Below, piece by piece: positions 3,357 through 47,200 of a stretch of DNA of 64,000 nucleotides. Below the pieces are notes generated by a model. It was not told the origin of the DNA and ran no database searches. It saw only the letters and a list, made by a program, of their open reading frames with translations. Where the stretch lies: positions 1 to 64,000 of the forward strand of contig JAJRTR010000111.1 in the NCBI GenBank assembly GCA_024278215.1. Direction: 5' to 3'. The position numbers were made by a program, and so were the translations under genes. Source of the DNA: a bacterium. GTDB taxonomy: Bacteria; UBP15; UBA6099; JAJRTR01. Each line of letters starts with the position of its first letter. The first letter of the stretch is position 1.

Positions 3357-5363
3357 CTACTTCAGCGGCAGCGTGAAGTGGAAAGCGCTGCCCTTATCTT
3401 TTTCACTTTCGACCCATATCCTGCCGCCGTGCAGTTCGATAAGTTCCTTGCAAATAGCGAGTCCAAGCCCGGTGCCGCCGTAGCCGCGTGTATCGTGTTT
3501 GTCCACCTGGTAGAATCGTTCAAAAATCCTTTTTTGCTCGTCCCGTGGAATGCCGATGCCTGTATCGGACACGGAAAAACGGACGGCGTTTTCAGATTCA
3601 TCCCGGACCGCCTGCACAGAGATGCGGCCGCCGCGGGGCGTAAACTTTATGGCGTTTCCAATTAGATTGAACAGTACCTGGTTGATGCGGTCACGGTCCG
3701 CGTAGACATGCGGCGTCTCGGGATCGACGTATATCTGCAACTCGATCTGCGATTCCTTGAGCCGCTCGCTGAAGACCTCTTCTACGCCGCGCAGTTCCTT
3801 GCCGGGATCAATGTATCTTTCTTTCAACTCGATTCGCCTGGCGTCGATCCTGGAGATGCTCAACAGGTCGGCTATGAGATTCTGCAGATTGCGTCCCCTG
3901 CGCAGAACCACCTCGAGACATTCGCGCTGATCGTCCGATATCTCTCCGGTCACACCCTCGAGCATCATCGAAACATTGCCGATAATCGATGTCAGCGGTG
4001 TGCGCAGTTCGTGGGAAACCGTGGAAAGGAATGTGTCTTTCACCTCGTTGGCTTTCTGGAGACTTATGTTGCTGTCCAGGAGTTGCTGATTGACTTTCTC
4101 GAGTTCTTTCGAGTACATCTCCAGATTTTCGTGTGCCGATTTCAAGCGGCGGGAGTACTCTTCCACCTGTTGTTTCGACAATCGCATTTCTTCCATCGAG
4201 TTGTTGAGCCTGACACTCATTTCGTTGAAAGCGGCGGCCAGTTCCGCTATCTCGTCGCTTCCCTCGATATCTATCCTGTGCAGCAGGTTTCCCCTGCCGA
4301 TCTCTTCCGCCCCGACCGTCAGTTTCATAATCGGACCGGTTATCCTTCTGGTGATCAACATGCCCAGAATCACCGATACACATATGCCGAGCAGTACGAG
4401 CAGAAAACTCGTGGTCAGCGATTTGATTTTAAATCTGTTGATGGATTCCGTTGACGAGAGCAGTTCGAAAACGCCGATGGGTTTATTTTCATAATCGAGG
4501 AGAGCAATGTAGCCGGTGATCTCGCTGATTCGGCGGCGGTCTTCCACCTTCTCGGATTCTTCCCAGTTTTCGGATGTCCGGAACATGCCCGAAGGTGGCG
4601 GCCTGTTCCACGAGGGGTCGGAACTGTTCACCAGTGAATGCGGGAGATAGACACTGGCGACGCCTCGTGTTCGATCATGAATCTCGCGTAGTAGCGTCCT
4701 GTCTCTGTTCAGCAAGTAGCCGACCGTTACCGTGCCGACGACCCCCTGCGCGTCGGTGCGCGGTCTGAAGGTGGTATAGCCTTCTCCGCGCTCGAGTCGA
4801 AACACCGGCACCGTCGCTTCGATAGCAAGCCCCGTGTCGCTCACCTCGTTGTGAGACGGCTCCGCTATCATTCCATTGCGCCACATATCTTCGGGGTCCA
4901 GGCGTGCGAAAGACACCACCTCGCCGCCGTTGAGCGCAATTCTCACCGAAGCCCGGTCGCTCATGTCGTCGCCGGTCGAGTTGAACTCGGGATACCTGCA
5001 CAAAACGATACCCACCGAATCTGTAACCGTTAGGTAAGCCAGGTCGTAGTCTTCATAAGCGATAAGAAAATCTTTAACTTTGATCCGTATCGAGTTGCCG
5101 ACGCGGCTTGTCACCATCTTGCTGAAATATATATCACTTGCAAGGCCGCGTCCTATCCGCCTCAGGTTCTGTTTCTTATTCGCCAGCAGCAGTGTCGCTA
5201 CCTCGAGGTCGGACTCCATCTTGTACTGCGCTTCTTTATATATATACTGCGAAAGAAAGACGAGGTTGTAGAGCGAGGGTATCACCATTGCAGAAGCGAC
5301 GACAACAAGAAACGCCAGTACAAGTCTTCTGCCGAGTCCCCACCTTGTTCGTTTGAATTCCAT
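3357..5363 (-). CDS. Sensor histidine kinase (Cache-like sensor, HAMP, HisKA, HATPase)
   Basis: The 668-residue protein has a membrane segment at about 13-35, a ~275-residue periplasmic sensor region resembling a double Cache domain, a second membrane segment at about 317-338, HAMP to about 390 and a coiled coil. HisKA has the H-box STVSHELRTPLTS (phospho-His about residue 451). The ATPase domain shows the N-box (NLIGNAIKFTPRGG), G1 (DTGIGIP) and G2 (GTGLGLAI). It should autophosphorylate in response to a periplasmic signal and pass phosphate to a receiver. The divergently transcribed receiver-GGDEF protein is the obvious partner, but this is an inference from position only. Its stop is 6 bp from the stop of the convergent upstream gene. 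Confidence 0.92.
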   Translation of the reverse strand: MEFKRTRWGLGRRLVLAFLVVVASAMVIPSLYNLVFLSQYIYKEAQYKMESDLEVATLLLANKKQNLRRIGRGLASDIYFSKMVTSRVGNSIRIKVKDFLIAYEDYDLAYLTVTDSVGIVLCRYPEFNSTGDDMSDRASVRIALNGGEVVSFARLDPEDMWRNGMIAEPSHNEVSDTGLAIEATVPVFRLERGEGYTTFRPRTDAQGVVGTVTVGYLLNRDRTLLREIHDRTRGVASVYLPHSLVNSSDPSWNRPPPSGMFRTSENWEESEKVEDRRRISEITGYIALLDYENKPIGVFELLSSTESINRFKIKSLTTSFLLVLLGICVSVILGMLITRRITGPIMKLTVGAEEIGRGNLLHRIDIEGSDEIAELAAAFNEMSVRLNNSMEEMRLSKQQVEEYSRRLKSAHENLEMYSKELEKVNQQLLDSNISLQKANEVKDTFLSTVSHELRTPLTSIIGNVSMMLEGVTGEISDDQRECLEVVLRRGRNLQNLIADLLSISRIDARRIELKERYIDPGKELRGVEEVFSERLKESQIELQIYVDPETPHVYADRDRINQVLFNLIGNAIKFTPRGGRISVQAVRDESENAVRFSVSDTGIGIPRDEQKRIFERFYQVDKHDTRGYGGTGLGLAICKELIELHGGRIWVESEKDKGSAFHFTLPLK

Positions 5364-5648
5364 ATTATTTATGTTCGATCTGTTTATTCTCGTACCGGCA
5401 ACGCATGCTGCCGTCTGTCGACTGAACGCGCCGCGCTCATCCGGAAATCACCGGTGTTGTGGTGTCCCTGTGCGGACAGGATTACATTTAACACATGCTT
5501 TCCAATAGTTTACTTGAAAACCTCAGTTTATTATACGACAGAAAATCGAAATGGAAAACCATCGGCGATGAAGACAGGGCCTCTTGTGAAAATATGTTCC
5601 TGCACAGTCGGTTGCGGTCTGAATAAAAATCCGATAGGATGATGGTTG
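5364..5648. promoter_or_regulatory. Divergent control region between kinase and diguanylate cyclase genes
   Basis: About 285 bp separate the two divergent starts, so both promoters must lie here. A TTTATTATAC stretch near 5527-5536 resembles a rightward -10 region, but no clean -35 box is seen. AGGA at 5636-5639 is the ribosome site for the rightward gene. Confidence 0.35.
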
Positions 5649-6530
5649 ATGGAGAAAAAAACGATAAAGATACTACTCGTCGAGGACAGCCCCACAGATT
5701 ATCATGTAATAAAAGAAATGCTGTCCGAGTTCGACAACATCAATTACAGGGTGTCCTGGGCGCGCCTTCTTTCCGAAGGGCACGAACAGCTCAAGGAGGA
5801 CGACTTCGATGTTGTACTGCTTGATCTTGCGCTGCCCGACAGCCGGGGTTTCGACACATTCGGCGCGGTGCGCCACGTTGTGCCGCACATACCGATAATT
5901 CTCCTGACCGCCACCGACGACGATGAACTGGCTCTCGATCTCGTCCGCCGCGGCGCGCAGGATTACCTGGTAAAGGGCCAGATCAACAGCAACATACTCG
6001 TGCGTTCGATCAGGTACTCGATCGAGCGGCACCAGATGCACTCGATACTGCGGAATCTCGCTCTTATCGACGAACTTACCGGACTCTACAACAGGCGCGG
6101 CCTCAACGCTATCGCAAAACAACATCTCAAACTTGCACAGAGGACAAAACGCAACATAATAGTTATATGCACGGATATGGACGGTCTCAAGGAAATCAAC
6201 GACACCTGCGGACACCTCGAGGGCGACCGTGCGATTGTCGAGACGGCAAAGATACTCAAGGCGACATTCAGGGAGTCCGATATTGTCGCCCGCTACGGGG
6301 GCGACGAGTTCGTCGTGCTCGCAATCGAGGCGCACGCGGAAAGCAACGATATTCTTGTCAACCGCCTGCGGAGCAATGCCGCCGCCTTCAACTGGGAGTC
6401 CGATTTCGATTTCACTATTTCGCTCAGCATCGGAACGGCTGTTTATAATCCTGAAACCGCCGCCGAACTCGAGGACCTGCTGAGGGAGGCGGACGCGGCG
6501 ATGTATGAGGACAAAAGAAACAAAATCTGA
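5649..6530 (+). CDS. Response regulator diguanylate cyclase (REC-GGDEF)
   Basis: The ~293-residue protein starts with a receiver domain (LLVEDSPTDYH acidic pair, phosphoacceptor Asp in VVLLDLALPDS, conserved LLTAT). It is followed by a GGDEF domain with an intact active-site loop YGGDEFVV. An RxxD inhibitory site (RESD) sits exactly five residues before GGDEF, so product inhibition by c-di-GMP is expected. It should make c-di-GMP from two GTP when phosphorylated. I use the ATG at 5649, nine bases after AGGA; a TTG one codon earlier is possible. It is divergent from the histidine kinase, suggesting a two-component c-di-GMP switch. An HD-GYP protein that could degrade c-di-GMP lies far away at 57565. 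Confidence 0.93.
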   Translation: MEKKTIKILLVEDSPTDYHVIKEMLSEFDNINYRVSWARLLSEGHEQLKEDDFDVVLLDLALPDSRGFDTFGAVRHVVPHIPIILLTATDDDELALDLVRRGAQDYLVKGQINSNILVRSIRYSIERHQMHSILRNLALIDELTGLYNRRGLNAIAKQHLKLAQRTKRNIIVICTDMDGLKEINDTCGHLEGDRAIVETAKILKATFRESDIVARYGGDEFVVLAIEAHAESNDILVNRLRSNAAAFNWESDFDFTISLSIGTAVYNPETAAELEDLLREADAAMYEDKRNKI

Positions 6531-6558
6531 CACCATATCTATATTACGCGCGAAACGC

Positions 6559-6564
6559 TATAAT
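6559..6564 (+). promoter_or_regulatory. TATAAT -10 box directly in front of the RNA methyltransferase start
   Basis: TATAAT lies only 8 bases before the ATG at 6573, and no Shine-Dalgarno sequence precedes that ATG. If the box is used, transcription would start within about two bases of the start codon, giving a leaderless mRNA. Confidence 0.4.
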
Positions 6565-6572
6565 TCTGCCCT

Positions 6573-7376
6573 ATGGAAAACATAACGAGTTTACAGAATA
6601 AACAGGTGAAGGAACTTGCCGCCCTGTTCACGAAGAAGGGGCGCAGGGCTTCGGGATGCTTTGCGGCAGAGGGACAACGGACACTGATCGAGGCGCTCAA
6701 CGCGGATGCTCTTGCGCTGCGGCTCGCAGTTGTCGAAAAACTGCTCGAAAAACCGGAAATCAGTACGCTTGTAAAGAAATTCGAAGCAAAAGGGACTTCC
6801 ATACTCACCGTGTCTGCACAAATCATGAAGAAAATCAGCGGGATGGATACGCCCCAGGGCATCATCGCCGAAGTGAAGCGTCCGGACACAACGCCGCTCG
6901 CATCCGTGAATTTTACCGGCGGTGTGAGTGTGTTGCCGTGGGGACTTAGCGACCCACGCAATATGGGGCTACTGGTGAGAACGGTAGAGGCCGCCGGTGG
7001 AAACTATATCTTGTTGCCGCCGGGAGTTACCGACCCCTTTCATCCGCAGGCGGTGCAGACATCTATGGGCGCTGTGTTCCACAGCAGGTTTGTCGAGGAT
7101 GCGCGCGCCGCGGTCATGATAAATGAAGCGAAACAACAGGGTGTCCCGGTTGTCGCTACAAATGCCTGGAAGGGCCGGGACGCAACAGATTGGCTCAAAC
7201 ACGCGCCCGCGAATTTTCTACTCCTGCTGGGCAATGAAGGCGCGGGCCTTGCGCCCGAAATCGAGGATATGGCGGACGTCTCTATTTCTCTGCCCATTTC
7301 GGGTAACGCGGAATCTCTGAATGTCGCCGTGTCGGCTGGAATCATCCTTTATCTTCACAGAGCTTTTTCGAGCTGA
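6573..7376 (+). CDS. TrmH/SpoU-family RNA 2'-O-methyltransferase
   Basis: The 267-residue protein has an N-terminal RNA-binding subdomain (starting MENITSLQNKQVKELAALF, typical of RlmB-like enzymes) and a C-terminal SPOUT domain. The three SpoU motifs are visible: DPRNMGLLVRTVEAAG near 127-140, LLLGNEGAGLAPEI near 215-230, and LPISGNAESLNVAVSAGI near 241-258. The family transfers methyl from SAM to a ribose 2'-OH in 23S rRNA or tRNA through a trefoil knot. The exact target base cannot be read from sequence. The gene is followed by the AT-rich HEPN/ATPase cassette. Confidence 0.9.
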   Translation: MENITSLQNKQVKELAALFTKKGRRASGCFAAEGQRTLIEALNADALALRLAVVEKLLEKPEISTLVKKFEAKGTSILTVSAQIMKKISGMDTPQGIIAEVKRPDTTPLASVNFTGGVSVLPWGLSDPRNMGLLVRTVEAAGGNYILLPPGVTDPFHPQAVQTSMGAVFHSRFVEDARAAVMINEAKQQGVPVVATNAWKGRDATDWLKHAPANFLLLLGNEGAGLAPEIEDMADVSISLPISGNAESLNVAVSAGIILYLHRAFSS

Positions 7377-7597
7377 GCGCCGACCGGAACCGAAAACGGC
7401 CCGCTCGATGTGAGTACTTGCTCGATTCAAAAACGATCCTCCTTCACATTTCTTCTCGACACTATTTCATCCCCTCTTCTCTGGTTCAACCCCTCCGGTC
7501 CCTATTGTCTCCACCCATGTGAACAGTTACCATCCGTTGATATTAGCATTTCCCATATATACATGTTAGAATTAAAAAAAATTGCAAGCAGGAAAAT
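7377..7597. other. Leader of the AT-rich cassette
   Basis: Base composition changes here from the GC-rich methyltransferase gene to the AT-rich cassette, with a pyrimidine-rich stretch at about 7440-7510. AGGA at about 7588-7592 serves the HEPN gene. No attachment-site repeat was found when compared by eye with the right flank (10618-10732). Confidence 0.3.
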
Positions 7598-8011
7598 ATG
7601 GTACCATCAAATCCGCAAGAATGGATAGCGATAGCCAGTGAACGAGCTTCGGATGCTGAAGAGATATTTAAAGGTAAACCGAATTCTGTAGGGTCTGTTT
7701 ATATGGCGGGATATGCAATTGAATGCAGTCTTAAAGCTTATTATAAGAAGCAAGGGAAGCAACCACCCACATCAGGCAGAAGAGGGCATAATTTAAAGAC
7801 CATGCTAAAAGATTGCGGCCACAGACTTAGCGATTTGCGAGACGGTGATGGATATAAGTCCTTTTATCTTGATTCCTGGTCAACTGATTTGCGTTATGAG
7901 ACAAAGCTTCCTGTAGGGTTCGAGGACAAAGCTGAAGAACTGCTGAAGGCAGCCAGAAAATTAACCGGCAATATACAGACTTGGTTGCGAAGGGAAAGAA
8001 AACAAAAATGA
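7598..8011 (+). CDS. HEPN domain protein
   Basis: The 137-residue all-helical protein has the layout of small HEPN proteins: an N-terminal WIAIASERASDAEEIF helix, the core YMAGYAIECSLKAYYKK helix, then GHNLKTML (the H-x-L turn seen in many HEPN members) and a C-terminal AEELLKAARKL helix. HEPN proteins are often ribonuclease effectors or adaptors in toxin-antitoxin and antiphage systems. The canonical catalytic Rx4-6H motif is not obvious (only an RRGH is present), so nuclease activity is uncertain. Its stop overlaps the ATG of the next gene in ATGA, so the two are translationally coupled. The region is AT-richer than its neighbours, suggesting horizontal acquisition. Confidence 0.72.
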   Translation: MVPSNPQEWIAIASERASDAEEIFKGKPNSVGSVYMAGYAIECSLKAYYKKQGKQPPTSGRRGHNLKTMLKDCGHRLSDLRDGDGYKSFYLDSWSTDLRYETKLPVGFEDKAEELLKAARKLTGNIQTWLRRERKQK

Positions 8012-10617
8012 CACAAAAAGAGATCAAAGAACTAATTTCCTCAAATCTGGAAAATGCTGGTTACAATTATGAAGAAGTTCGCGTGCAGTCTGATCGTTAT
8101 GGGGGCTGGAACATAGCAGTTATATCAGATGATCTGAATAAAGTTCCTTATGCTGAAAGGAAAAGAATTGCTATTGGAGATTTGGATAACAGAATAAAAA
8201 TAGAATGGCTGGACTTAATTACGACTGAAGAAAAAGAGTGGTCAGGAACATTACCCAACGACACACCACAACTTGAGCTACCCCTTTGGTCGGAAGCTCT
8301 GTCCCGAGAAGACACTACCGAAACGATTTTATTTCCTTCAGACCTTGATGATGATTTGCCGCCGCCGATTATTGGGACATTCTATTCATTGAAGGGAGGT
8401 GTTGGCCGCACGACGGCTCTCGCATACACCGCAAGTATACTCGCTTCCCTTAATAAAACAGTATTATGTGTCGATATGGACTTAGAAGCTCCCGGATTGA
8501 CTTCGATATTTGGGAAAGACAATGAATTGCGGGAAAATCAAGGCCTTGTTCATTTGTTATATGATATGGATAATGGAGAGAAACCTGACGTCAATAAGCA
8601 TATTATACGAATATCGGAAATGGACGAGCTTTACTGTTTGCCTTCAGGAATTCCCAATGCCGACTATGCAAGGAAACTCAGGTATATTGATCCCGAACAA
8701 TGGTATCGTGAAGACAGAAATCCAATGAGGGACCTTAAAACGATTCTTGCAGAGGAATTATCATTTAGACCCGATGTGATTCTTTTCGACGCGAGAACCG
8801 GAATCTCTTCGATCAATGCTCCCCTGCTTTTCGATCTTGCCGATATAGCATTTATTGTTTTTTATCCTCATCCACAATCAGAAACTGGATCAAAGGAATT
8901 GGTAAAAGCGCTTCTTAAGACAAAAACAATACGTGAATATGAAAAAAGATTAACTCCGGAACTTCGTTTTATTATTTCTCCATTGCCGGCCGGGTTGCCG
9001 AAAGAAGTCAACCAGAGATACCGAAATCGTACTTCGGCATGGATTTCAGATTGGCTGGCAACAACAGAAAAAACCGGAATAGCCTTGATTGATAATGAAG
9101 AAATCACACACTTCATCAATTACAATCAAGCTGTTGCAACAAGTGACAACATGCTGAACGACAACAGTGTGATAAACTGTTACGAGCCGGTTGCCGAATG
9201 GATCGAACGTTTCCTGCCTACAAAACGTGAGAAACAAATAAATAGTAGTCTTACCAACAAAGAGAACATCCTCAATGAACTTAAGTTTACATCAGGTATC
9301 GCAGAAGATCTCGAGAACCTTGAAGATGTATTCGTTGAAACTGAACTGGTCAATAAAGCTCTTATTCCCTCAAACTATCTCATCCTTGGCAGAAAAGGAA
9401 CCGGGAAGACAACTATCTTCAGATACATAAAGGAACACAAGAATAAAGAATCGATAGTTGTGCAATCACCCGCCAAACTCCGCGATGATTTAAAATGGAT
9501 ATTCAGCGCGGAGGAGTTTAAGAATATAGATAAAATCTTACAGGATAGTAATGAGAGCTGGCGTTCTTTCTGGGCAATATACACTGTACTGGCTTGTTAT
9601 TTGAACAGTGACAATTCAGCCGCATACGACACTGTCCCGAATGATTTCCGTAAAGTAATTCACGGAAAGATTAACAGCCGATTAACAATGTTCAAATGCA
9701 TCGAGGCTGTTCTCCGTATAAAACACACTGCTTTATCTGCTTCAGATTGGCTCGACAGAGTTGATTCCGGCACGACGAAAGAAACATACATTTTATATGA
9801 TGGGCTGGACAGCAGTTTTGGACATTCTGCTGATGAAAGGGAAAGGCGGCGTGCTGCTGTCGAGGGGCTTTTCTCCTTTGTTACAGATCGTGCGGCTTAC
9901 TTTAAAAATCTAAAATTCAAGGTTTTGTTAAGAGAAGATATATGGAGGAATCTTCAATTCGAGAATAAGAGCCATGTATATGGTAGTTCTGTGACAATTG
10001 CGTGGAAAGCAAAATATATATATCTGAAAGTATTAATAAAACAGGCACTCTTGTCTGAAGGATTCAGAGAAAGTGTTTACAAGATAATCAGCGAAAACAT
10101 TAATGATGATATTAACGAATGGGACGAAAGGAAAGTCTTCGATGCGTGGCATCTGCTTGTTGGTGAAAGAATGAGAGGAGGAAAAACCGCGTTTACTCAA
10201 AACTGGGTATGGAAAAGGTTGGCTGATGCAAACAATGATCATACTCCACGATCTTTGCTGCAACTTTTCAATCAAGCTAAAGGGACTGAGGTGGAAATGC
10301 AAAAAGAAACACCTTATACTAAAACAATTATTCGCCCCCGCGCTCTTATTGATTCTTTAGCTGAAGTGTCAAGTGAAGCAGTAAATGCAATCTCTGAAGA
10401 ATTTCCCGAACTACATGATTTTATTGAAAAACTGAAAAGAATAGCTCGGTCCCCTGTGGCCGCTGGTGAGTTAAAAGATTTTGACAACGAACTCAAGCTG
10501 GCACAGGAAGTCGGATTGATAGGCGCTTATGAAAAGATAGATGGCGAAACGACAAGATATAAAGTTCCCGATATCTACCTCTATGGTATAGAAATGACTC
10601 GCAAGGGACAGGCGTAA
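8008..10617 (+). CDS. Double-ATPase protein: KGGVGR ParA/MinD-like domain plus second P-loop ATPase
   Basis: The 869-residue protein has a ~100-residue unassigned N-terminus. It is followed by a SIMIBI ParA/MinD-like ATPase with Walker A KGGVGRTT (129-136; Arg where the family normally has Lys), CVDMDLEAPG, and VILFDARTGI near 258. A second P-loop domain follows, with GRKGTGKTT at 461-469, a Walker B-like YILYDGLD near 594-601 and a sensor-like FKVLLREDIW. The end looks like a winged helix (about 820-869). The second domain resembles Sll1717-type ATPases. KGGVGR-variant ATPases occur in bacterial conflict islands. The ATG at 8008 overlaps the HEPN stop by four bases. I infer a sensor/activator of the HEPN partner; this is untested. 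Confidence 0.75.
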   Translation: MTQKEIKELISSNLENAGYNYEEVRVQSDRYGGWNIAVISDDLNKVPYAERKRIAIGDLDNRIKIEWLDLITTEEKEWSGTLPNDTPQLELPLWSEALSREDTTETILFPSDLDDDLPPPIIGTFYSLKGGVGRTTALAYTASILASLNKTVLCVDMDLEAPGLTSIFGKDNELRENQGLVHLLYDMDNGEKPDVNKHIIRISEMDELYCLPSGIPNADYARKLRYIDPEQWYREDRNPMRDLKTILAEELSFRPDVILFDARTGISSINAPLLFDLADIAFIVFYPHPQSETGSKELVKALLKTKTIREYEKRLTPELRFIISPLPAGLPKEVNQRYRNRTSAWISDWLATTEKTGIALIDNEEITHFINYNQAVATSDNMLNDNSVINCYEPVAEWIERFLPTKREKQINSSLTNKENILNELKFTSGIAEDLENLEDVFVETELVNKALIPSNYLILGRKGTGKTTIFRYIKEHKNKESIVVQSPAKLRDDLKWIFSAEEFKNIDKILQDSNESWRSFWAIYTVLACYLNSDNSAAYDTVPNDFRKVIHGKINSRLTMFKCIEAVLRIKHTALSASDWLDRVDSGTTKETYILYDGLDSSFGHSADERERRRAAVEGLFSFVTDRAAYFKNLKFKVLLREDIWRNLQFENKSHVYGSSVTIAWKAKYIYLKVLIKQALLSEGFRESVYKIISENINDDINEWDERKVFDAWHLLVGERMRGGKTAFTQNWVWKRLADANNDHTPRSLLQLFNQAKGTEVEMQKETPYTKTIIRPRALIDSLAEVSSEAVNAISEEFPELHDFIEKLKRIARSPVAAGELKDFDNELKLAQEVGLIGAYEKIDGETTRYKVPDIYLYGIEMTRKGQA

Positions 10618-10732
10618 AGTTATACCGATTTACCTCTGGTGGTGGGTAGATATGGGCGAGTTTGCCATCTCTCCGCACAGCAGAAAAACACTGTCTTGCG
10701 ATCCAGACGTTCAAATATGCTTTTATGGTAAG

Positions 10733-11107
10733 TTAATCTTTGACCCAGTCGAGCGCGCCGCGTCGCCACACGTATATCAGGCCGACGAACAGTACGCCGA
10801 TGAAAACGAGTCCTTCAAGAAATATGAACGCGCCGAACATCTTGACGAATGTTTTGAACACTATCGCCCAGGGATAGAGGAAAATCGCCTCGATATCGAA
10901 TAACACAAACAGCATTGCCACGAGGTAGAACTTGACGGAAAACCGGGCCGGGACACCGGTATACGGGTCGACGCCGCATTCGTATACGGACAGCTTGACA
11001 TCGTCCGGTTTCTTCGGGCCGATCATGTGTGTCATCATCACAAGAACTACGGCAAAACCGATCACAAAGAGCAACTGCATCAGGATCGGAATATAATCTA
11101 CAGGCAT
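10733..11107 (-). CDS. nuoA: NADH-quinone oxidoreductase subunit A
   Basis: The 124-residue protein has the three membrane helices of NuoA and its signature loop KLSVYECGVDP, followed by RFSVKFYLVAMLFVLFDIEA with the conserved Cys and acidic residues. NuoA lies in the membrane arm of complex I beside the quinone site. It normally heads a nuoA-N operon, but no nuoB or other nuo gene is near. Transcribed leftward, it is followed by the convergent AT-rich cassette. It is either a detached subunit gene of a split complex I locus or a relic; the reading frame is intact. Confidence 0.95.
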   Translation of the reverse strand: MPVDYIPILMQLLFVIGFAVVLVMMTHMIGPKKPDDVKLSVYECGVDPYTGVPARFSVKFYLVAMLFVLFDIEAIFLYPWAIVFKTFVKMFGAFIFLEGLVFIGVLFVGLIYVWRRGALDWVKD

Positions 11108-11287
11108 GACTATTCCTCCAGTCGAATAATGTTGCTGTCAACCTGTATATCTTAGCATAATCATGCTGTAAATCAAGGGCGGAAATGCGGGAGTCTGTTT
11201 TTTCCGAAATTCAGTTACACGAACGAGCCGGTCGGCCTGACGCCAACTATGCTCCAGGTGAGTGCGGCTCTGTGCCTGGCACACAAA

Positions 11288-11326
11288 TAAAAACCCCCGG
11301 AGAGAAAAAATACTCCGGGGGTAGAT
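11288..11326 (-). terminator. Rho-independent terminator of the SLH porin gene
   Basis: On the leftward strand a 10-bp stem ACCCCCGGAG / CTCCGGGGGT encloses an 8-base loop and is followed by TTTTT. It lies about 22 bp past the porin stop. Confidence 0.88.
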
Positions 11327-11347
11327 ATTCCGACAAAAAACTGCCGA

Positions 11348-12997
11348 TCAGAAATTGATCAGGAGTTCGCCCCGTACTCTGTTGAGGAGAATGGGGTCTT
11401 TGCCCTGCTGCGCATATTCGACACGTACGGAAGAATTGTCGTTGATGGGCTTGGTGATCGAAAGAGCGCCGAAGCCGGGATAATCTTCACCGTCGAGATT
11501 TGCAATTGTGCTTGAGCTGCCGCCGGCGAAGTTGCCGATGAAGCCCTTGGCGGCGAGTTCCACGTCGCCCAGGACAATGTAGCTGGCTTCAACACCGAGA
11601 CCTTCGAAGCCTGCCGGGAAAAGCATACGACCGGATTCGTAGGAATAGCAGTTTGTGGGTTTGACATCCAGACCGATGGGGCATGTGTTGTCATATTCCG
11701 TGAAGGGATTGACATCCATGCTGCTCAACGAGACTGCCGCGGGAAGGTCCGCGTAGGACAGTGTCAGACCAGCCCTGCTGTTCTTGTAAACATCCAGACC
11801 GATGATGAAGCTGTAGTCGTCTTCTGTGCCGGTGGGTGACGAACCGTCGATCTTGTCTGTGACCGTCATGTATTCGCCTCTTACCTCTGTGAGGAAGGGT
11901 GATTCTGTCAGCAGCGGGGCGACAATGTCCGCACCCCAGCCTTTTTCCGCTTCAATACCGTTTATGAGGTAATTGAAACCGAGGTCGATCCACGGAAGAT
12001 CGATGTCGACCCTCGCCGCGCCGTAGGGATCTTTTCCTGCGGACCCGAGGCCCTGTGAACCATTGGTAAACAGTGAGTCCATGCGGGCGAGTCCGCCGAT
12101 ACCTGTTATTGTTACGAGGTCCTTTGAAACAACGCCCATGACGGCGGGAATGGAAGTTACGCCTGTGTTGTCGACGAGCATGCCATAGGGACCGAATGCG
12201 AAGGCCTGGTATCCTGTGCGGAGATTCAGGTTGTCGAGTTCGCGCACCATCGACGAGAAGTCCGTATCAACGTATGCATGGTTGATAACCAGTTCACCTG
12301 TGTCGTCTCCCGGTGTCTGATCATAGCCGAGGGGCGAGGTGCGGATACTCTTGTCGAACCCGATCGAGAAATCGACATCCATACCGGCCTGGCCGGTGAT
12401 TGTGATCGAAGGCAGCATTTCATAGCCTGCCGCGAGATTACCTGATGTGGCTGTCGAGCCGAAAATGTTCAGATAATCGTTTACAAACGATGTCGATGAA
12501 AGGTCCGTGTTGGGGATATCAAGTCTCTGTCTTACGCTACCCGAAATCTGGATGTTGCCGAAGCGGTTTGCCCGGACATCTTCTTCGAGTGCTGCTATCT
12601 TTGTCGAGTTTTCGTCGATCTTGACCTTCAGCGCCGCGATTTCATCCTTAAATTCCGCCGCGAGCTTCTTGATGATGGTCTTCACTTCTTCAAGGTCTTC
12701 CGGAGCCAGACTGACCGTCTGTCCGCTTGCATCTTTGCATTCGCTTTTTGTGCAATACGTCTTGTCGATGAGATTCATCATTCTCTCGACCACGAGTGCA
12801 TATTCATAGCGGCTTAGATTCCGGTCGCCTTTGAATGTTCCGTCGGGATAGCCTTTGATCATGCCGGAGTCAACGAGTTTCTGAACTGCGTCTTCCGCCC
12901 AGTGTCCGCTCGGGACATCTACCAGCGCTGCCGAGTACGACATCTGCGCCAGGCCAAATACCATTCCGATTACTACCAGAAAGAAAATTTTCTTCAT
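11348..12997 (-). CDS. SLH-domain outer-membrane porin
   Basis: The 549-residue protein has a signal peptide (MKKIFFLVVIGMVFGLAQ..., cleaved near SYSA) and one S-layer homology domain (about 22-70: VPSGHWAEDAVQKLVDSG, GYPDGTFKGDRNLSRYEYA). A coiled coil follows (about 90-140: EEVKTIIKKLAAEFKDEIAA), then a long beta-rich region ending in LLINF. A terminal Phe after alternating residues is a typical outer-membrane barrel signature. In SLH porins the SLH domain holds peptidoglycan and the barrel spans the outer membrane. The ATG at 12995-12997 is chosen because GGGAGGTTG stands just before it and the signal peptide follows; the frame stays open 60 codons further upstream, but that part looks non-coding. 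The OmpM-like family call is firm; cargo is unknown. Confidence 0.88.
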   Translation of the reverse strand: MKKIFFLVVIGMVFGLAQMSYSAALVDVPSGHWAEDAVQKLVDSGMIKGYPDGTFKGDRNLSRYEYALVVERMMNLIDKTYCTKSECKDASGQTVSLAPEDLEEVKTIIKKLAAEFKDEIAALKVKIDENSTKIAALEEDVRANRFGNIQISGSVRQRLDIPNTDLSSTSFVNDYLNIFGSTATSGNLAAGYEMLPSITITGQAGMDVDFSIGFDKSIRTSPLGYDQTPGDDTGELVINHAYVDTDFSSMVRELDNLNLRTGYQAFAFGPYGMLVDNTGVTSIPAVMGVVSKDLVTITGIGGLARMDSLFTNGSQGLGSAGKDPYGAARVDIDLPWIDLGFNYLINGIEAEKGWGADIVAPLLTESPFLTEVRGEYMTVTDKIDGSSPTGTEDDYSFIIGLDVYKNSRAGLTLSYADLPAAVSLSSMDVNPFTEYDNTCPIGLDVKPTNCYSYESGRMLFPAGFEGLGVEASYIVLGDVELAAKGFIGNFAGGSSSTIANLDGEDYPGFGALSITKPINDNSSVRVEYAQQGKDPILLNRVRGELLINF

Positions 12998-13483
12998 GTA
13001 CAACCTCCCTGGAAAATCTGTGCTTTTTGGGAACTCTGCGAGTCTTCGCTTGTGAAAGTATCCAAGTTTCCTTTCCCTGCTCCAACTCGCTTCGTTCACT
13101 TTTACTGAGTTCTTTATCGGCTCCCGTTCCAAGGATTTACACCTCCTCCCGTGGGCTATTGCCGTTTTATTCAGCAAAAGAAATTCTTTAAATATTTTTA
13201 ATCATAATATTATATACATTTTATCTTCTTTTTGTACTCCAGCCTTTTCTTGTATCCTTGCGATTTTCTTATATATTAGGCCAAATACAAAAAATAAGCG
13301 CATAGTTCGGCTCTAAACGTGTTTTTTCTTCTATTATCGCTATATTTCGCAACATATATATATAAATACTTCTGTGCTATTATTATATTATCCAGTGTAT
13401 TGCCTGTTTTTTGCTCTTTTGCTCAAAACATTTAAGTAAAATCACTGCACAAAATAATTGCTGTTATTCACGGAGGTCGCGCG
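12998..13483. other. Divergent leader: long SLH-porin 5' leader plus AT-rich promoter zone
   Basis: About 180 bp next to the porin start are GC-balanced, purine-rich on the leftward strand, and open in the porin frame, but lack protein-like composition. The following ~270 bp (13190-13460) are strongly AT-rich and should hold the promoters for both divergent genes. GGAGG at 13472-13476 serves the HdrD-like gene. No known riboswitch could be recognised by eye. Confidence 0.4.
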
Positions 13484-14713
13484 ATGTCCACAAGAAATTC
13501 CGACAATGACAACCCATTCTTCGCCCCCTTCGACCCGTCCAGATGCGTTTCATGCGGGCACTGCCTCAATGAGTGCCCCGTTATGAAACTTCCGCTTCCT
13601 CTGGCGAAGAGGGAAATGAAGGCTCTCAAATCCGGCAAAAAAGGTTCTTTCGTCCTATCCTGGTGCGAGACCTGTATGGCCTGTAATCTTATCTGTCCCG
13701 AAAGTGCAAACCCGGCTATGCTGTTTATCGAAAAATTCTACGAATTCCACAAAGAACGTGCTTTCCCTGAATGGTCACTCTATTTTCAACCGCATAACAC
13801 GCCGAATTTCAGGACAAAAGTTATCGAAAAGCTTCCGACCGATGAAAAAACGATGCTCGACGACTGGAGCGATATGTCCGCTTGCGACGAATTCACTTAT
13901 CCGGGCTGCAATATGTGTGCTACCCCGTATCTGACCCGTAATAATTTCATGGAAGACCTGAACATTCGCGGCGGAATCGAGTATTGTTGCGGAGAGATGT
14001 ATTTCAGGACGGGACAACTCGATAAGCTCAGGCAATCTGCCGCAAGGCTGAACCGGTTTCTCGAAACACTCGGCGCATCGAAGATGATGGTGCTTTGCAC
14101 GGCAGGCTACAACCTTTTCACCAATGTTCTGCCCCGTTACGGACTCGTTTCAGATGTCGAAATAACATCATATCTGCCCTGGCTGCTGGCGAAGATCGAA
14201 GCAGAAGAAATAAAGGTCAAAAGACCGCTGGAAATGAGCGTAACAATACAGGATTCATGCCATTCCAAGGCGCTTGGCGACGAATATGTGGAAATACCGC
14301 GCAGGATTCTCGAAAAAATCGGTGGCGAAGTCAAAGAAATGAAGCACTCGAAAGAAATGAATTACTGTTGCGGCATCGGCGGTGGTTTTCCGGCTCGAAA
14401 ATCGTTCCATCCGCTTGCGATAACCGCCTCTACAGGCAGAGTGATGCTCGAAGCGAATCTGACACAGGCCGACGCGATAATGGCATATTGCTCGGGCTGT
14501 CTCCAGACGCTTTCCACAATGGCAGCTATCTTGCCCGTTTCTAAACCGATATATCACATACTCGAACTCGTCCAGATTGCTGCTGGAGAAAAGCCTCTCA
14601 GACGGAATATTGAACGGGGAAAACAACTACTCAAAGGTATGATAGTAAACCAGGTGCCGAAGATATTCAGTCTGAATCGTGTGTCTGTCCCCGATATTCC
14701 CGAAGAGGTATAA
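13484..14713 (+). CDS. HdrD/GlpC-like Fe-S oxidoreductase (two 4Fe-4S plus two CCG domains)
   Basis: The 409-residue protein starts with two ferredoxin-type clusters (CVSCGHCLNECP and CETCMACNLICP). It continues with two cysteine-rich CCG domains (YPGCNMC...YCCGEMYF and DSCHS...NYCCGIGGGF...YCSGC). This layout is shared by HdrD, GlpC and the lactate-utilisation LutA family: cytoplasmic proteins that pass electrons between ferredoxin-like clusters and a non-cubane cluster or a dehydrogenase partner. No partner dehydrogenase or cytochrome b is next to it, so the donor and acceptor are unknown. GGAGG lies 7 bases before the ATG. Confidence 0.88.
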   Translation: MSTRNSDNDNPFFAPFDPSRCVSCGHCLNECPVMKLPLPLAKREMKALKSGKKGSFVLSWCETCMACNLICPESANPAMLFIEKFYEFHKERAFPEWSLYFQPHNTPNFRTKVIEKLPTDEKTMLDDWSDMSACDEFTYPGCNMCATPYLTRNNFMEDLNIRGGIEYCCGEMYFRTGQLDKLRQSAARLNRFLETLGASKMMVLCTAGYNLFTNVLPRYGLVSDVEITSYLPWLLAKIEAEEIKVKRPLEMSVTIQDSCHSKALGDEYVEIPRRILEKIGGEVKEMKHSKEMNYCCGIGGGFPARKSFHPLAITASTGRVMLEANLTQADAIMAYCSGCLQTLSTMAAILPVSKPIYHILELVQIAAGEKPLRRNIERGKQLLKGMIVNQVPKIFSLNRVSVPDIPEEV

Positions 14714-41256: not shown

Positions 41257-44200
41257 ATGAGGCAGGGGCTTGGAAGAGAGATTTTACTTACGGTTGTAGT
41301 GGTTTTGTTAGCGGCAACAACAGCGAAGGCGAATTTCTTGTTGCCTGTGGAATCGATGTGCAACTACAGGTCGCTGATGGACGACGACTGCGTAATTTGC
41401 GAAAATGTGCAAAATTTTACGCGAGATTTTCCGATGGGAAAAGGTTTCGCGCCAAATATTTCCGATGTAACGATTCTGCGGGGAAGCCCGTATCCGAGCG
41501 AGGTTGTGTCGGTGCAGGTAACCGCCACGACCGACGGCGGCGCGACCGACCAGCTCCCCAAAAGCGCGCAGAGTATCCTGTGGGGGCAGATCGCGTTCTC
41601 GATGTCCGGCGGGAACAGCTGGTACACAAATAATTACGACAAGGGAACAAATCAGCATGGCGACGAGAGAATCGGAACCGGAATTCCAATGGATTTCTTC
41701 AAGCATGAAGTGCTGACGGTAAAGAATCAGGGTAATGTCAGATACAAGCAGTACATTTCGGTGCTCAAGCCCTGGGCGGTTTCTCCTGAAGATGACGCTT
41801 TCAAATATGGAGTCGAGCTGAGTGACCCAAAGGATACTCCAGCCCCCAACAGGTGGTGCGGTCTGGATGCTTCGAAATGTAATAAAGCTGCATATCCGGC
41901 CCCGTATGCTGTTGATTGTCCTTATGGTTTCACCTGCCCATTGTATGATATATACCCGCCCAACACCGGCGAAACTGCGGGTCCGTGGCCGACCCCTTAT
42001 TGCGATCAGGCCGACGGGAACTGTAATGTACCCGGTTTCCCGGAAGGCGGCGGAGATCTGCTGGACTACTTCCCGTCGCTCGACCCTGATCCTGATACGG
42101 ATTATCCCAGTATTCCCGGGGCGCCGCTTGTGAGAGTCAACGGTGTGCCGGCAATTGACTGCAGTTTGTATAACGGAGTAGTTAACGAATATCTTGAAGC
42201 GATGGGCGTGACGGCTTCGGACCTCATCAGTGGTGAAAAGCTGCACCCGCTGTGCGATTCTCCTGTGGACAAGGACATACAGGCGGTTTATGACAGATTC
42301 GGAATCTATGCATACAAGCTCGTCCCCGGACAGGGGATGGTAAGGTTCACGGAAGCGCTTGATATGCTTGATGTTGTCGACGCGACATTCTATTCGGCGG
42401 ACATGAAAGTGTGGACGGCTAAAATAGATATGAGCGAAGCGCCTTTCAACGCGCAGAACACTGTCGGCGGATCCTTCATACTGCACCCCACGTTCATGGA
42501 CACATGCGGGAACCTGGCATCAGGCGCGCAGTCGCCGCCTTATCCGCCTGCGATTCCCGGAGAAAGCAACGAAGCTTATGTCGGTGTGTTCGACTATTAC
42601 TATGACCAGATACCGACGGACCAGGATGCGATGAAACAGGTTATAGACGACGATCCTCTGACACAGTGCAGCGCGACGGACACATTGTGCCCGGCTGACG
42701 GGATTCCCAGGGACGAGCGTGTCGAGTGCGATGATCCCAACTGTGAATGCTGCTATAACGAGTGCAGCCCCACGTATTGCACATATAACGGCGCTACCAG
42801 GCCGGATGTCAGCGCACAATGCAACCCGATTGGAGACAATGCCAATCCGCCGGGCTGCGGCCCCGAACACTGGGGCGAACGCGGCATGGCAGAAATCCGT
42901 GAATTCAAGATCAGCCACTCGGCGTCCAATCTCTATGTGAAAATGTCGGTCCAGGGAAAAGTGCAGTTCGGCTGCTACGGCGGATGGTATCCGGTCATCG
43001 GTTGCAACCAATGGGCATTCGGCGGCGGCGAACAGGCAAGTAAATTTCACGGCTATTCATGGCAGTTCCTGAACCTCGAAACGCAGGGAACTTTTTATCT
43101 GATTGTTATTCCGGATATACCGGTATACGGCGCGATACCGCTCTTTATGGACCTCAACAAGCTTCTCGGAGAACTTATGGGAAGCAATTACGACGGAATG
43201 GAACTCGAGCAATATGCAGACGGCGGCGGTTGTAAAAAACCAGGCGAAGATGAGGAACCGCTCGACCCATGCGAGGAGATAGGCTGCACCCCCGAATCCA
43301 ACCCGACGGGTGATTGCGATGAGGACGGTTTTTTGAACTCGACGGATTCCTGTCCCTGCTCCGCCGGCGGCGACGACTCGGAAGACGGATGCCCGCCGCC
43401 CGACCCCGATCCGGGCGGAGACCCGCTGGGTCCCTATAAATGTCCCGCCTGCACCATTGAAAACACGGGCGGCGATCTTTATGTCGAGATGGGGCTCGAA
43501 GAAACACTCGGCCTTACCGACACTTACCACGCTATGGCGATGTTCCTGTCGGTTCACGATCTCGACGTCGACTGGATACTCTACTACGCCTGTCTCAAGG
43601 GCTACAACCTCACGGGACTCGCGCAGGACCAGTCGCCCAGGATACAGTACTACATGCTCGGCGATGTCGCGAAAACAACTGTTACTCTTTCTCAGGACTA
43701 CACCGCACCGAAGATGCCGATGTATGCGCAGGCCTGTCTCGGCAGGTGCGACGAACCTGAACCCGATCCCGACAATCCCGACGGCTACGACAACGACTGC
43801 GATCTCGATGTCGTCGAACCCGTGCATGATCTGGCAGTGGACGAAGGATATGATCCCACCGCAACGCAGATCGAGTTCTCTTTCCAGGAAGTCGTCTCTA
43901 ATAACGATCCTTTAAAAACAGACCTGACGGACCTCGGCGGATATGAAATACAGGTATCCAGGGATAGGGACGGACCGTACGAGACATATTATGTTATGTG
44001 CGCCGACGATGCGGGGGCGGACTGCTACGGCAGGACAACGACAAACGAAGAGTACCTGGCCGGTGTCGTGCATAACAGGGATATACCATCTCTCGACGAA
44101 CCTTATGACGGGACGAATATATGTTCATTCGCGGAACACAACACTCCGCGCGAAGTCCGCAACAGGTTCCCCGATCCGTTCGACTGGCAGGAACCGTACT

Positions 44201-47200
44201 CCGGGTATGGTTTCCCCGGGGAGCCTATTTCCTGCGTGATCGACACCGACTGCGACCCCGTGCATAACGGACGCGACGATGACCTCGACGGCACTGTCGA
44301 CGAAGGCTGCTGGGCGACAAATTGTATCGACGACACAACACAACTGGCGGCAGACGGACAGTCATACTGGTTCAGGGTCAGGGCCTTCGATCTGCCTAAA
44401 CCTATCGACGCCACCTCCACCGCCCTGGTGAACTACAGCGATTATACGGAACCTGTCGGCGCGACTATCCTGCGCAATACGCTTCCACCGGCGAAACCGG
44501 ACGAAGTCGCCGCTTATGCGATGGCGGACGGCGGCAAGGCGAAAGTCGTGTGGAATCCAAACGTGGAATATGACATGGGTGGTTATATGGTTTACAGGTG
44601 TCCGGCCAACCCGCTCGACGCTGTCAAAATGACTCTCGACGGCACACTCGATACCTACTGCGCGAACGACGACAACTACAGGCAGATCATCCCCGAGATC
44701 ATGGACGACCTGAACGGTTACCTCGTCGACGATGGTATGGGATACCGCGAAACGGGACTCGGGACCGGTGCTACGGCGACGGCCCTGCTGAGTTGCCCCA
44801 ACGGTACAGACCCGTCCACTTACGTCAACTCCGACGGTTTCTACATCAAGGACGACAACTGCAACTGGATCGAGTCTACCGACGATGTCGGCGTCGACGG
44901 CGAAGCCGGTACGGGCGACCTCGGCGAAGGCGACCATGTGCCCACTCCCGCCATTCCAGGGCTATACCCCGGCGAACCCCACGCTTATGAATGGATAGAC
45001 TGTTCCGATCTCACGAAGAACGGCATTACAAACGAAGACCTGAAACTTTGCGGAAACATCGAGACGCCCGGCGCATGGTTCGATAACAGCGATCCGCTGT
45101 TCTCGTCGGATGAAGTCGCCCTGCACCTCTTTGATGTGACCGCAGACCCGAACTACGACGAAGCCCTGCACGCACCGGTTATTTTCTATAACGGACTTGT
45201 GGACGGCTACAAATATTACTACAAAATAAAGGCGATTGACGCTCCGTATCTCGGAGATGGTTATAACGATATCAGCACAACGGACAACTGCGACGACGGT
45301 CTCACCGCATACGCTGAAGGTCCGCCACCCACAGGCTGTGTGAACCCCATCGAGGAGCGCACTTGTGATGACAAAGCTATAGCTTATGACTGGACAAGCG
45401 GCGGCAATTGCAGCGAAATATCCGATGTCATGGAAGTGATTCCGGCCGACACGCAGCCGCCGCAGAAACCTATGGCTGTTCAGGCACAGATCGCCAAAAG
45501 CGGCAAATCCGTCACCCTGACATGGGAAACTCCTGTTACGGACCGCACACAGGACCATTTCAACATCTACCGCGCTGTGGGCAACGAAAGACTCTACGCC
45601 TGCGTGCACGGCGGCTGCTCCACACCACCGTACACAGCCGGTTGCGCCTGCGACCCCAACTCGAGTACGCAGCAGTGCAATACCGGTTACATCTGTGATG
45701 TGCCATACAAGATTTGCACCAATCCACCTTATTACAGCGTCACCCCGCAATCCACAGGCTGCGACTCTGTGCCGTACAACGACGGCTGCATCTGCACAGA
45801 TGACTCAGACTGCAACACGGGCATGAGCTGCACTAACCAGTACTCGATATGCCGGCTTGAAAACGAACCCCCCGGCTACCCGTTGAAAAACGATCTGCTG
45901 GATAACGACGGAGACGGCGTCATCGACGAAGAGCAGGAAAACGGTATCGACGACGATGCCGACGGCCTGATAGATGAAGACACCGGCGAAAGAACTTCGA
46001 CCGAATGGAAAATCGGCGAATGCCCGACTCCGGATTATCCTTACTACAGCGCGGTTAACGAGTATCTCCAGGAGCGCATTATCACAAACAGCTTTGTCGA
46101 CAACTCCATCAAACGCGACACGACGTATTACTACAGAATATCAGGTGTGGACAACGCGAAGTACGACCCGCTGGACTTCCAGACGGAAATCACGGACGTG
46201 GACCCGCCGCCGCCCAACGAAGGCACAAGGTCCTTCTCCATCATTGTCAACACGGTGGACTCCGAGGCCCCGGCGCAGGTCGGCGGTGCCTGCACGCACC
46301 CCATTACCCATCTGCCGATGCCCTGCGCCGACAGGCTCGACGAGACTTTCGCCACAAGTGAAACGTCCCTGCCCGTCAGTTGCGCCAACGAAGCGACGAT
46401 GGCATCGACCGATACCGATATGTATGGCAACCAGATCACTGTATGGTGGTACAGAAGTTCGGATGAAGATATCCAGGGCTACTACATCTACCGGGCCGCC
46501 GATACTGCCGGCACAGGTGTCGAACCGCCCGCAGGCGCTTTCGAACAGATCAACCAGACGATGATCGCGCAAACTGCTTCGACAGGCTCGGCACAGACGC
46601 TCTGCTATAAGGATGTCGGGCTCGACAACAATACCGACTATTATTTCTCGGTAACAGCAATTGATACTCACGGCAACGAGAGTTATCTTTCAGAGGTAAC
46701 GGGTCCCATACAGGCCAAAGACACAACCCCCAACATTAAACCGATGTGGGGCACTTCAGTCGGTATCACTTCCGATGTCAACGGCTTGAAGTTGACGCTT
46801 GAATGGATGGCACACGTCACCAACTGCAGCGCATATTCAAGTCCGTCTTCCTGCAATGCCGTCCAGACCTGCTACTGGACAAGCTCGTGCGAGATGCTCG
46901 ATACGGAAAAAGACTTCTCTCATTTCCTCGTTTACAGGGATGAAGACGACAACGATATATGCGACGAAGATGAACTGCTCGGCAGCAGCGGCACTTGCAC
47001 AACAGACGCGCAGTGCGGCTCCGACACTTGTGTAAACGGATTCTGTTGCGACGGGTCGGACTCCTGCAACGGCGAACTTACCGAGTCCACATACGTCGAT
47101 GAAGCGGTGACAAAAGGCGTGGAGGAAATGTACTGCATCAGGGCTGTCGACGAAAACGGAAACCTCAGCGACCTCTCGGACAGCCTGGCCGCAACACCTA

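Follow-up and report, generated by a model that had tools for sequence, protein, structure and literature searches.

We identified, in a window of bacterial DNA (the whole stretch analyzed, 64,000 nucleotides), a two-gene cassette that we assign, on the strength of sequence comparison, as a variant of the uncharacterized candidate system PDC-M28, itself a prediction, in which the B and C genes of that system are fused. The fused protein, BC, has an N-terminal BolA-like domain, and the same domain is found as a short stand-alone protein encoded directly behind HEPN genes elsewhere; the BolA-like domain and the stand-alone pairs are new here, and the PDC-M28 candidate was already listed. We suggest, with a probability of roughly 0.55, that the cassette is a two-gene conflict system, probably directed against phages or mobile elements, in which the HEPN protein, A, would be an RNase effector that the BolA-like domain restrains until the two ATPases of BC set it free. 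The features of the cassette are as follows.

7598..8011, + strand: gene A, HEPN protein of 137 aa (open reading frame and homology)
8008..8011, + strand: ATGA overlap, stop of A and start of BC (sequence)
8008..10617, + strand: gene BC, 869 aa, BolA-like plus ParA/MinD-like KGGVGR ATPase plus ORC/Cdc6-like Sll1717 ATPase
8008..8241, + strand: BolA-like domain, BC residues 1-78 (profile searches)
8365..9222, + strand: ParA/MinD-like ATPase, residues ~120-405 (NF047398, MinD/ParA folds)
8392-8415, + strand: variant Walker A, K/R-G-G-V-G-R, K129-T136 (sequence)
9298..10614, + strand: Sll1717-type AAA+ ATPase, ORC/Cdc6-like, residues 431-869 (NF047389, 2qby fold)
9388-9411, + strand: canonical Walker A GRKGTGKT, from G461 (sequence)
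~10462-10581, + strand: C-terminal winged helix (structure model)

The open reading frames at 7598-8011 and 8008-10617 are those of the original prediction, which had described a 137-residue HEPN protein and an 869-residue protein overlapping in ATGA. We took the ATG at 8008 as the start of BC because the homologues begin there; ORF finders had placed a TTG start at 7981. A similar short overlap of A and BC was found in many relatives when homologue loci were compared, and the two genes are likely to be translationally coupled through it. The GC content is 43% for A and 40% for BC against approximately 50 to 55% for the immediate flanking genes, in keeping with the earlier remark that the block is richer in AT than its flanks. 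The source genome (4.55 Mb, 207 contigs) carries a single copy each of A and BC, and a search of it returned no second copy of either and no BolA gene. Within the 64-kb window the cassette stands alone amid housekeeping genes, outside any defense island, and comparison with other genomes of the phylum revealed no shared flanking gene order on either side. Elsewhere in the window, positions 41257-49725 hold one open frame of 2822 aa with a signal-peptide-like start.

Sequence and structure prediction agree in assigning A to the HEPN fold, as originally proposed. Pfam HEPN (PF05168) matches it with an E value of 1.2e-8, which exceeds the curated cut-off, and is its sole match among HEPN models; the top Foldseek folds for an AF2 model built from 35 sequences (pLDDT 90) are all HEPN (1wol, 2hsb, 1ufb, human sacsin 3o10, and 1o3u; probability 1.00), with modest E values (best, 4e-3) and 2hsb ranked second. 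The lack of a visible Rx4-6H motif, conceded at the outset as a weak point, is real: no conserved His lies 4 to 6 residues after R99 in 43 aligned A proteins, nor in a separate alignment of 35, and since the catalytic His of that motif is absent A may not be an RNase. The residues that are conserved comprise E42-x3-K46, H64, W94, and R99-Y100; among the 43 relatives, E42 and K46 are invariant, R99-Y100 is invariant where present, and H64 is found in 42. The Ex3[KR] motif occurs in many HEPN families, and in AbiV and AF0298 (2hsb), among others, which lack the motif His and retain a basic residue, a conserved upstream His may form an alternative RNase site (PMC3710099). A has the same layout, with Ex3K/R, a basic residue replacing the motif Arg, and a conserved His N-terminal to that residue, so that E42, H64, and R99 would fit an alternative HEPN active site of the AbiV or HEPN-T/2hsb type, with catalysis predicted. 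The same protein could be a noncatalytic adaptor that binds RNA or protein, with BC as the effector, for instance an ATPase that acts on DNA and prevents invading DNA from being replicated or segregated. The absence of Rx4-6H would suit such a role, binding roles are known for inactive HEPN domains (PMC3710099), and the ParA/MinD-like and ORC/Cdc6-like families act on DNA or membranes; nevertheless, the retention of E42, K46, H64, R99, and Y100 in essentially all system members argues against an adaptor, which we consider unlikely although worth weighing.

In BC, the two ATPases and the winged-helix-like end that had been predicted were recovered, and the N-terminal BolA-like domain had been overlooked. 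NCBIfam AAA_KGGVGR (NF047398) matches residues 122-302 (E value, 2.5e-45; 155 bits against a cut-off of 90) and ATPase_Sll1717 (NF047389) matches residues 431-828 (E value, 2.7e-38; 132 bits against a cut-off of 75). The structural model resembles MinD/ParA, and its second half resembles Orc1/Cdc6 (2qby), both with a probability of 1.00; a C-terminal winged helix agrees with this model, which has a helix at 819-835 and a hairpin at 839-852. Both Walker A motifs lie where they were first reported, KGGVGRTT at 129-136 and GRKGTGKTT at 461-469. The first reads SLKGGVGRTT in full, and R134, which replaces the P-loop Lys, is invariant in 39/39 relatives; the other Lys of this loop, K129, is Arg in 24 of the 39. 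The same relatives all retain D156, D158, E160, D261, and R263 in the ParA-like part and K467 (of the second Walker A), D598, D601, and R642 in the Sll1717-type part.

The original prediction could not match this arrangement to a named system, which holds for the fused form found here and fails for the three-gene form, listed in PADLOC-DB 2.0 as the candidate phage-defense system PDC-M28. PDC-M28 comprises a HEPN protein (M28A), a KGGVGR ATPase (M28B), and a Sll1717 ATPase (M28C) in the same order, but as three separate genes, whereas B and C form one 869-aa chain in the window; we filed the cassette as a PDC-M28 variant because of this fusion. The PDC-M28A model (PDLC04558) matches 33/35 A relatives at an E value of ≤0.01 (best, 1e-10) and the A protein of the window weakly (0.006), and BC matches PDC-M28B (2e-29) and PDC-M28C (4e-19) in one chain. 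Separate A, B, and C genes were found on plasmids of Burkholderia glumae and Calothrix and in a Dolichospermum genome, where the fused form is present as well; the three-gene forms are L003, L004, and L122, other fused forms are L002, L005, and L118, and some of these loci are plasmid borne. On the Calothrix plasmid (L004:6487-8238), two further genes lie behind A-B-C, beside a type III restriction gene. The literature searched on PDC-M28, KGGVGR, and Sll1717 contained nothing relevant and no mechanism or test of PDC-M28; the candidate now gains a domain-level anatomy and candidate catalytic residues.

The assignment of BC residues 1-78 as a BolA-like domain is drawn from profile searches. A profile of 27 BC N-terminal stretches had BolA structures as all ten of its best PDB matches (E values, 6e-4 to 0.06), and it is this profile match, shared with the stand-alone partners, that relates these sequences to the BolA family (PF01722). 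They differ from that family in their linkage to HEPN genes, in the scores of single BC N-terminal or stand-alone partner sequences, which fall below the Pfam cut-off, and in the replacement, in nearly all of the BolA-like domains and partners aligned, of the His of the BolA R-H-R motif by K, R, or Q. That His is an Fe-S ligand, linked to glutaredoxin, and because it is mostly replaced, Fe-S binding by the BolA-like domains is unlikely. The assignment covers BC and the stand-alone partners and leaves aside the B proteins of the three-gene forms.

The stand-alone pairs came from a search of 27 carrier genomes with A, which returned extra HEPN genes, including further M28-type loci. Four of the extra HEPN genes had no ATPase and were followed directly by a short protein matching the BC N terminus or BolA. 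A short BolA-like protein was present in 10/291 genomes from the class to which one carrier belongs and, by profile search, in 35/199 genomes of the class of the Pirellulaceae carrier. With identical copies removed, 51 BolA-like stretches, one being a BC protein, had a HEPN gene right upstream and 16 did not; the latter include eight evidently true cyanobacterial BolA proteins, one stretch at a contig end, and one that is the second domain of a protein itself behind a HEPN gene. As a control, true BolA genes had a HEPN neighbor in 0/8 cases, and the retrieval of true cyanobacterial BolA by the partner profile indicates that this profile can detect BolA at the sequence level. Approximately 50 stand-alone pairs, with BolA-like proteins of 84 to 110 aa, were found, mainly in Planctomycetes and desulfobacterial genomes (L126-L192, for example L128:1073-1761 and L174). 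Their genes often overlap by 22 bp and are sometimes in tandem or frameshifted.

The profile of these stand-alone partners returned BolA structures as its top 14 PDB matches (best E value, 4e-5), matched the BC N-terminal profile with a probability of 97.4 and an E value of 9e-12, and recovered the N terminus of one BC protein (G025:C1178) with an E value of 9e-5; by these comparisons, the BolA-like domain of BC and the stand-alone HEPN-paired protein are the same. The HEPN proteins of the stand-alone pairs keep E42 (47/47), W94 (47/47), and R99 (45/46), and H64 is less well aligned, with 31/48 in the column. The retention of E42, W94, and R99 where the partner is BolA-like and any ATPase is absent bears on the adaptor explanation of A, being easier to reconcile with a catalytic site than with a surface on which BC docks. 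The searched literature, part of it represented by titles and the beginnings of abstracts, gave no description of a HEPN and BolA-like pair. We see about an even chance that HEPN and its small BolA-like protein constitute an undescribed, widespread toxin-antitoxin-like module and that PDC-M28-type systems originated through the attachment of two ATPases to the BolA-like partner, producing an invader-triggered switch; the stand-alone pairs would then be the minimal version, in two short genes. The BolA fold has so far been known mainly from iron-sulfur trafficking and transcription, and this would be a new role for it.

Bacterial and archaeal genomes were scanned with a two-sequence BC profile, giving 76 loci, near-duplicates included (three from Moorena and two from Mastigocoleus), of which 49 (L007-L055) match full BC or its whole first half and 27 match the KGGVGR part alone. 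The linkage of homologues, which the original prediction had put forward as a check, was borne out: a HEPN gene lies directly upstream on the same strand in 45 of the 48 testable BC or first-half relatives, across seven phyla, and upstream of 0/27 of the other KGGVGR ATPases. The other three loci are L014, L022, and L050; in L050 BC is fused to a HEPN remnant, and at L014 (269-1394), a band-7/SPFH-like gene occupies the place of the HEPN gene directly upstream. Distances between A proteins and between BC proteins correlate with an r value of 0.95 over 31 genomes, a value reached in 0/2000 permutations, and the two genes are evidently co-inherited. In the tree, phyla interleave, and the nearest well-supported group to the window contains Cyanobacteriota, Pseudomonadota, and Planctomycetota. 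BC relatives were absent from six other genomes of the cassette's own phylum, and none was found in viral contigs and phage records; plasmid records gave no match to the HEPN protein alone and 23 matches to BC, four of them covering at least 80%. The housekeeping surroundings in the window could be taken to mean that the cassette is a normal cellular switch for stress or regulation with no connection to invaders, but its absence from those six genomes, its patchy occurrence over at least seven phyla, its low GC content, and the defense neighbors of its relatives make this highly improbable.

Those neighbors were surveyed by scanning up to three genes per side of approximately 30 relatives, 158 proteins in all, against PADLOC. 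Strong matches included components of BREX (PglX, PglXI, PglZ, BrxL, BrxC, and BrxHI), type I restriction, Ssp, mads, and others; the 38 proteins of the window, scanned as a control, gave two cross-matches, and we give no enrichment value because PADLOC families overlap. The order at L019 is PglXI, A, BC, BrxHI, and at L034 the N-terminal part of PglX lies upstream of A-BC, with its C-terminal part and PglZ downstream. L015 and L031 encode a type I restriction enzyme upstream, L012 has mad3, and L017 has a PglX-like protein with an N-terminal part similar to that in L034. When ten further large neighbors were checked singly, seven had no match, indicating that the link to defense is frequent and not universal. 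Several relatives of the cassette sit in or beside known defense operons (BREX and type I restriction-modification), and these neighbors, the spread across phyla, and the PADLOC candidate listing support the original reading of a conflict or defense candidate. In the L034 interval 3361-14309, the PglX-like N-part occupies 3361-5643 and the C-part 9735-11717, a 360-aa ORF accompanies A-BC between them, and PglZ follows.

Insertion inside BREX operons points to defense and against an addiction or stability module of mobile DNA, in which HEPN would be the toxin, the BolA-like part the antitoxin, and the ParA- and ORC-like parts would serve plasmid partition or copy control. Such a module would accord with the plasmid-borne members, with the ParA and ORC likeness of BC, and with the resemblance of the HEPN-BolA-like pairs, some of them tandem or broken, to two-gene toxin-antitoxin loci. 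A HEPN gene of the MAE_18760 family adjoining a SIMIBI ParA-like ATPase gene, the HEPN plus ParA/Soj dyad, has moreover been proposed as a toxin-antitoxin system (Anantharaman 2013, PMC3710099); its HEPN protein keeps Rx4-6H, however, whereas A is PF05168/HEPN-T-like and lacks it, and the ATPase in our cassette adds BolA-like and ORC-like modules. We regard a stability module as quite unlikely, with most members in chromosome-type contigs between ordinary or defense genes, no ParB or centromere-like partner noted, and a P-loop Lys-to-Arg replacement unlike that of partition ParA.

We favor instead the conflict system, in which A would act as a metal-independent RNase through the alternative E42/H64/R99 site. 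The order of HEPN and then BolA-like sequence is constant, whether the latter is a small partner or the start of BC, and, read most simply, this would make the BolA-like part the direct partner of HEPN and the predicted contact of BC for the effector; it would bind and hold A in an antitoxin-like fashion, as the small partner would in a stand-alone pair. An ORC/Cdc6-like AAA+ module with a winged helix, together with a ParA-like ATPase, suggests DNA sensing, and these parts would respond to a state tied to the invader, with foreign or replicating DNA as the likeliest candidate, whereupon A would be released or activated, RNA cleaved, and the infected cell stopped in an abortive-infection-type response. 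HEPN RNases under NTPase control are exemplified by PrrC and RloC, for which the proposed principle is similar, an NTPase part keeping the RNase inactive until infection frees it (PMC3710099), but their NTPases are unrelated and fused with HEPN in one protein, and their HEPN motif is canonical. The HEPN-MNT toxin-antitoxin systems likewise join a HEPN fold to a small cognate partner gene, although there the partner is a nucleotidyltransferase and here it is BolA-like; A is without the Rx4H-Y motif, and Pfam and NCBIfam models detected no MNT domain in BC.

Some loci depart from the full architecture. Five, cyanobacterial and other (L035, L036, L037, L038, and L039), have A and a full-length B with no adjacent C, suggesting that C may be dispensable or that these are decaying copies or a reduced form; the P-loop at L037 reads RGGVGC. 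In two cyanobacteria, BC is interrupted by 1.2 to 1.4 kb of inserted DNA (L051:7724-8910 and L054:8525-9905).
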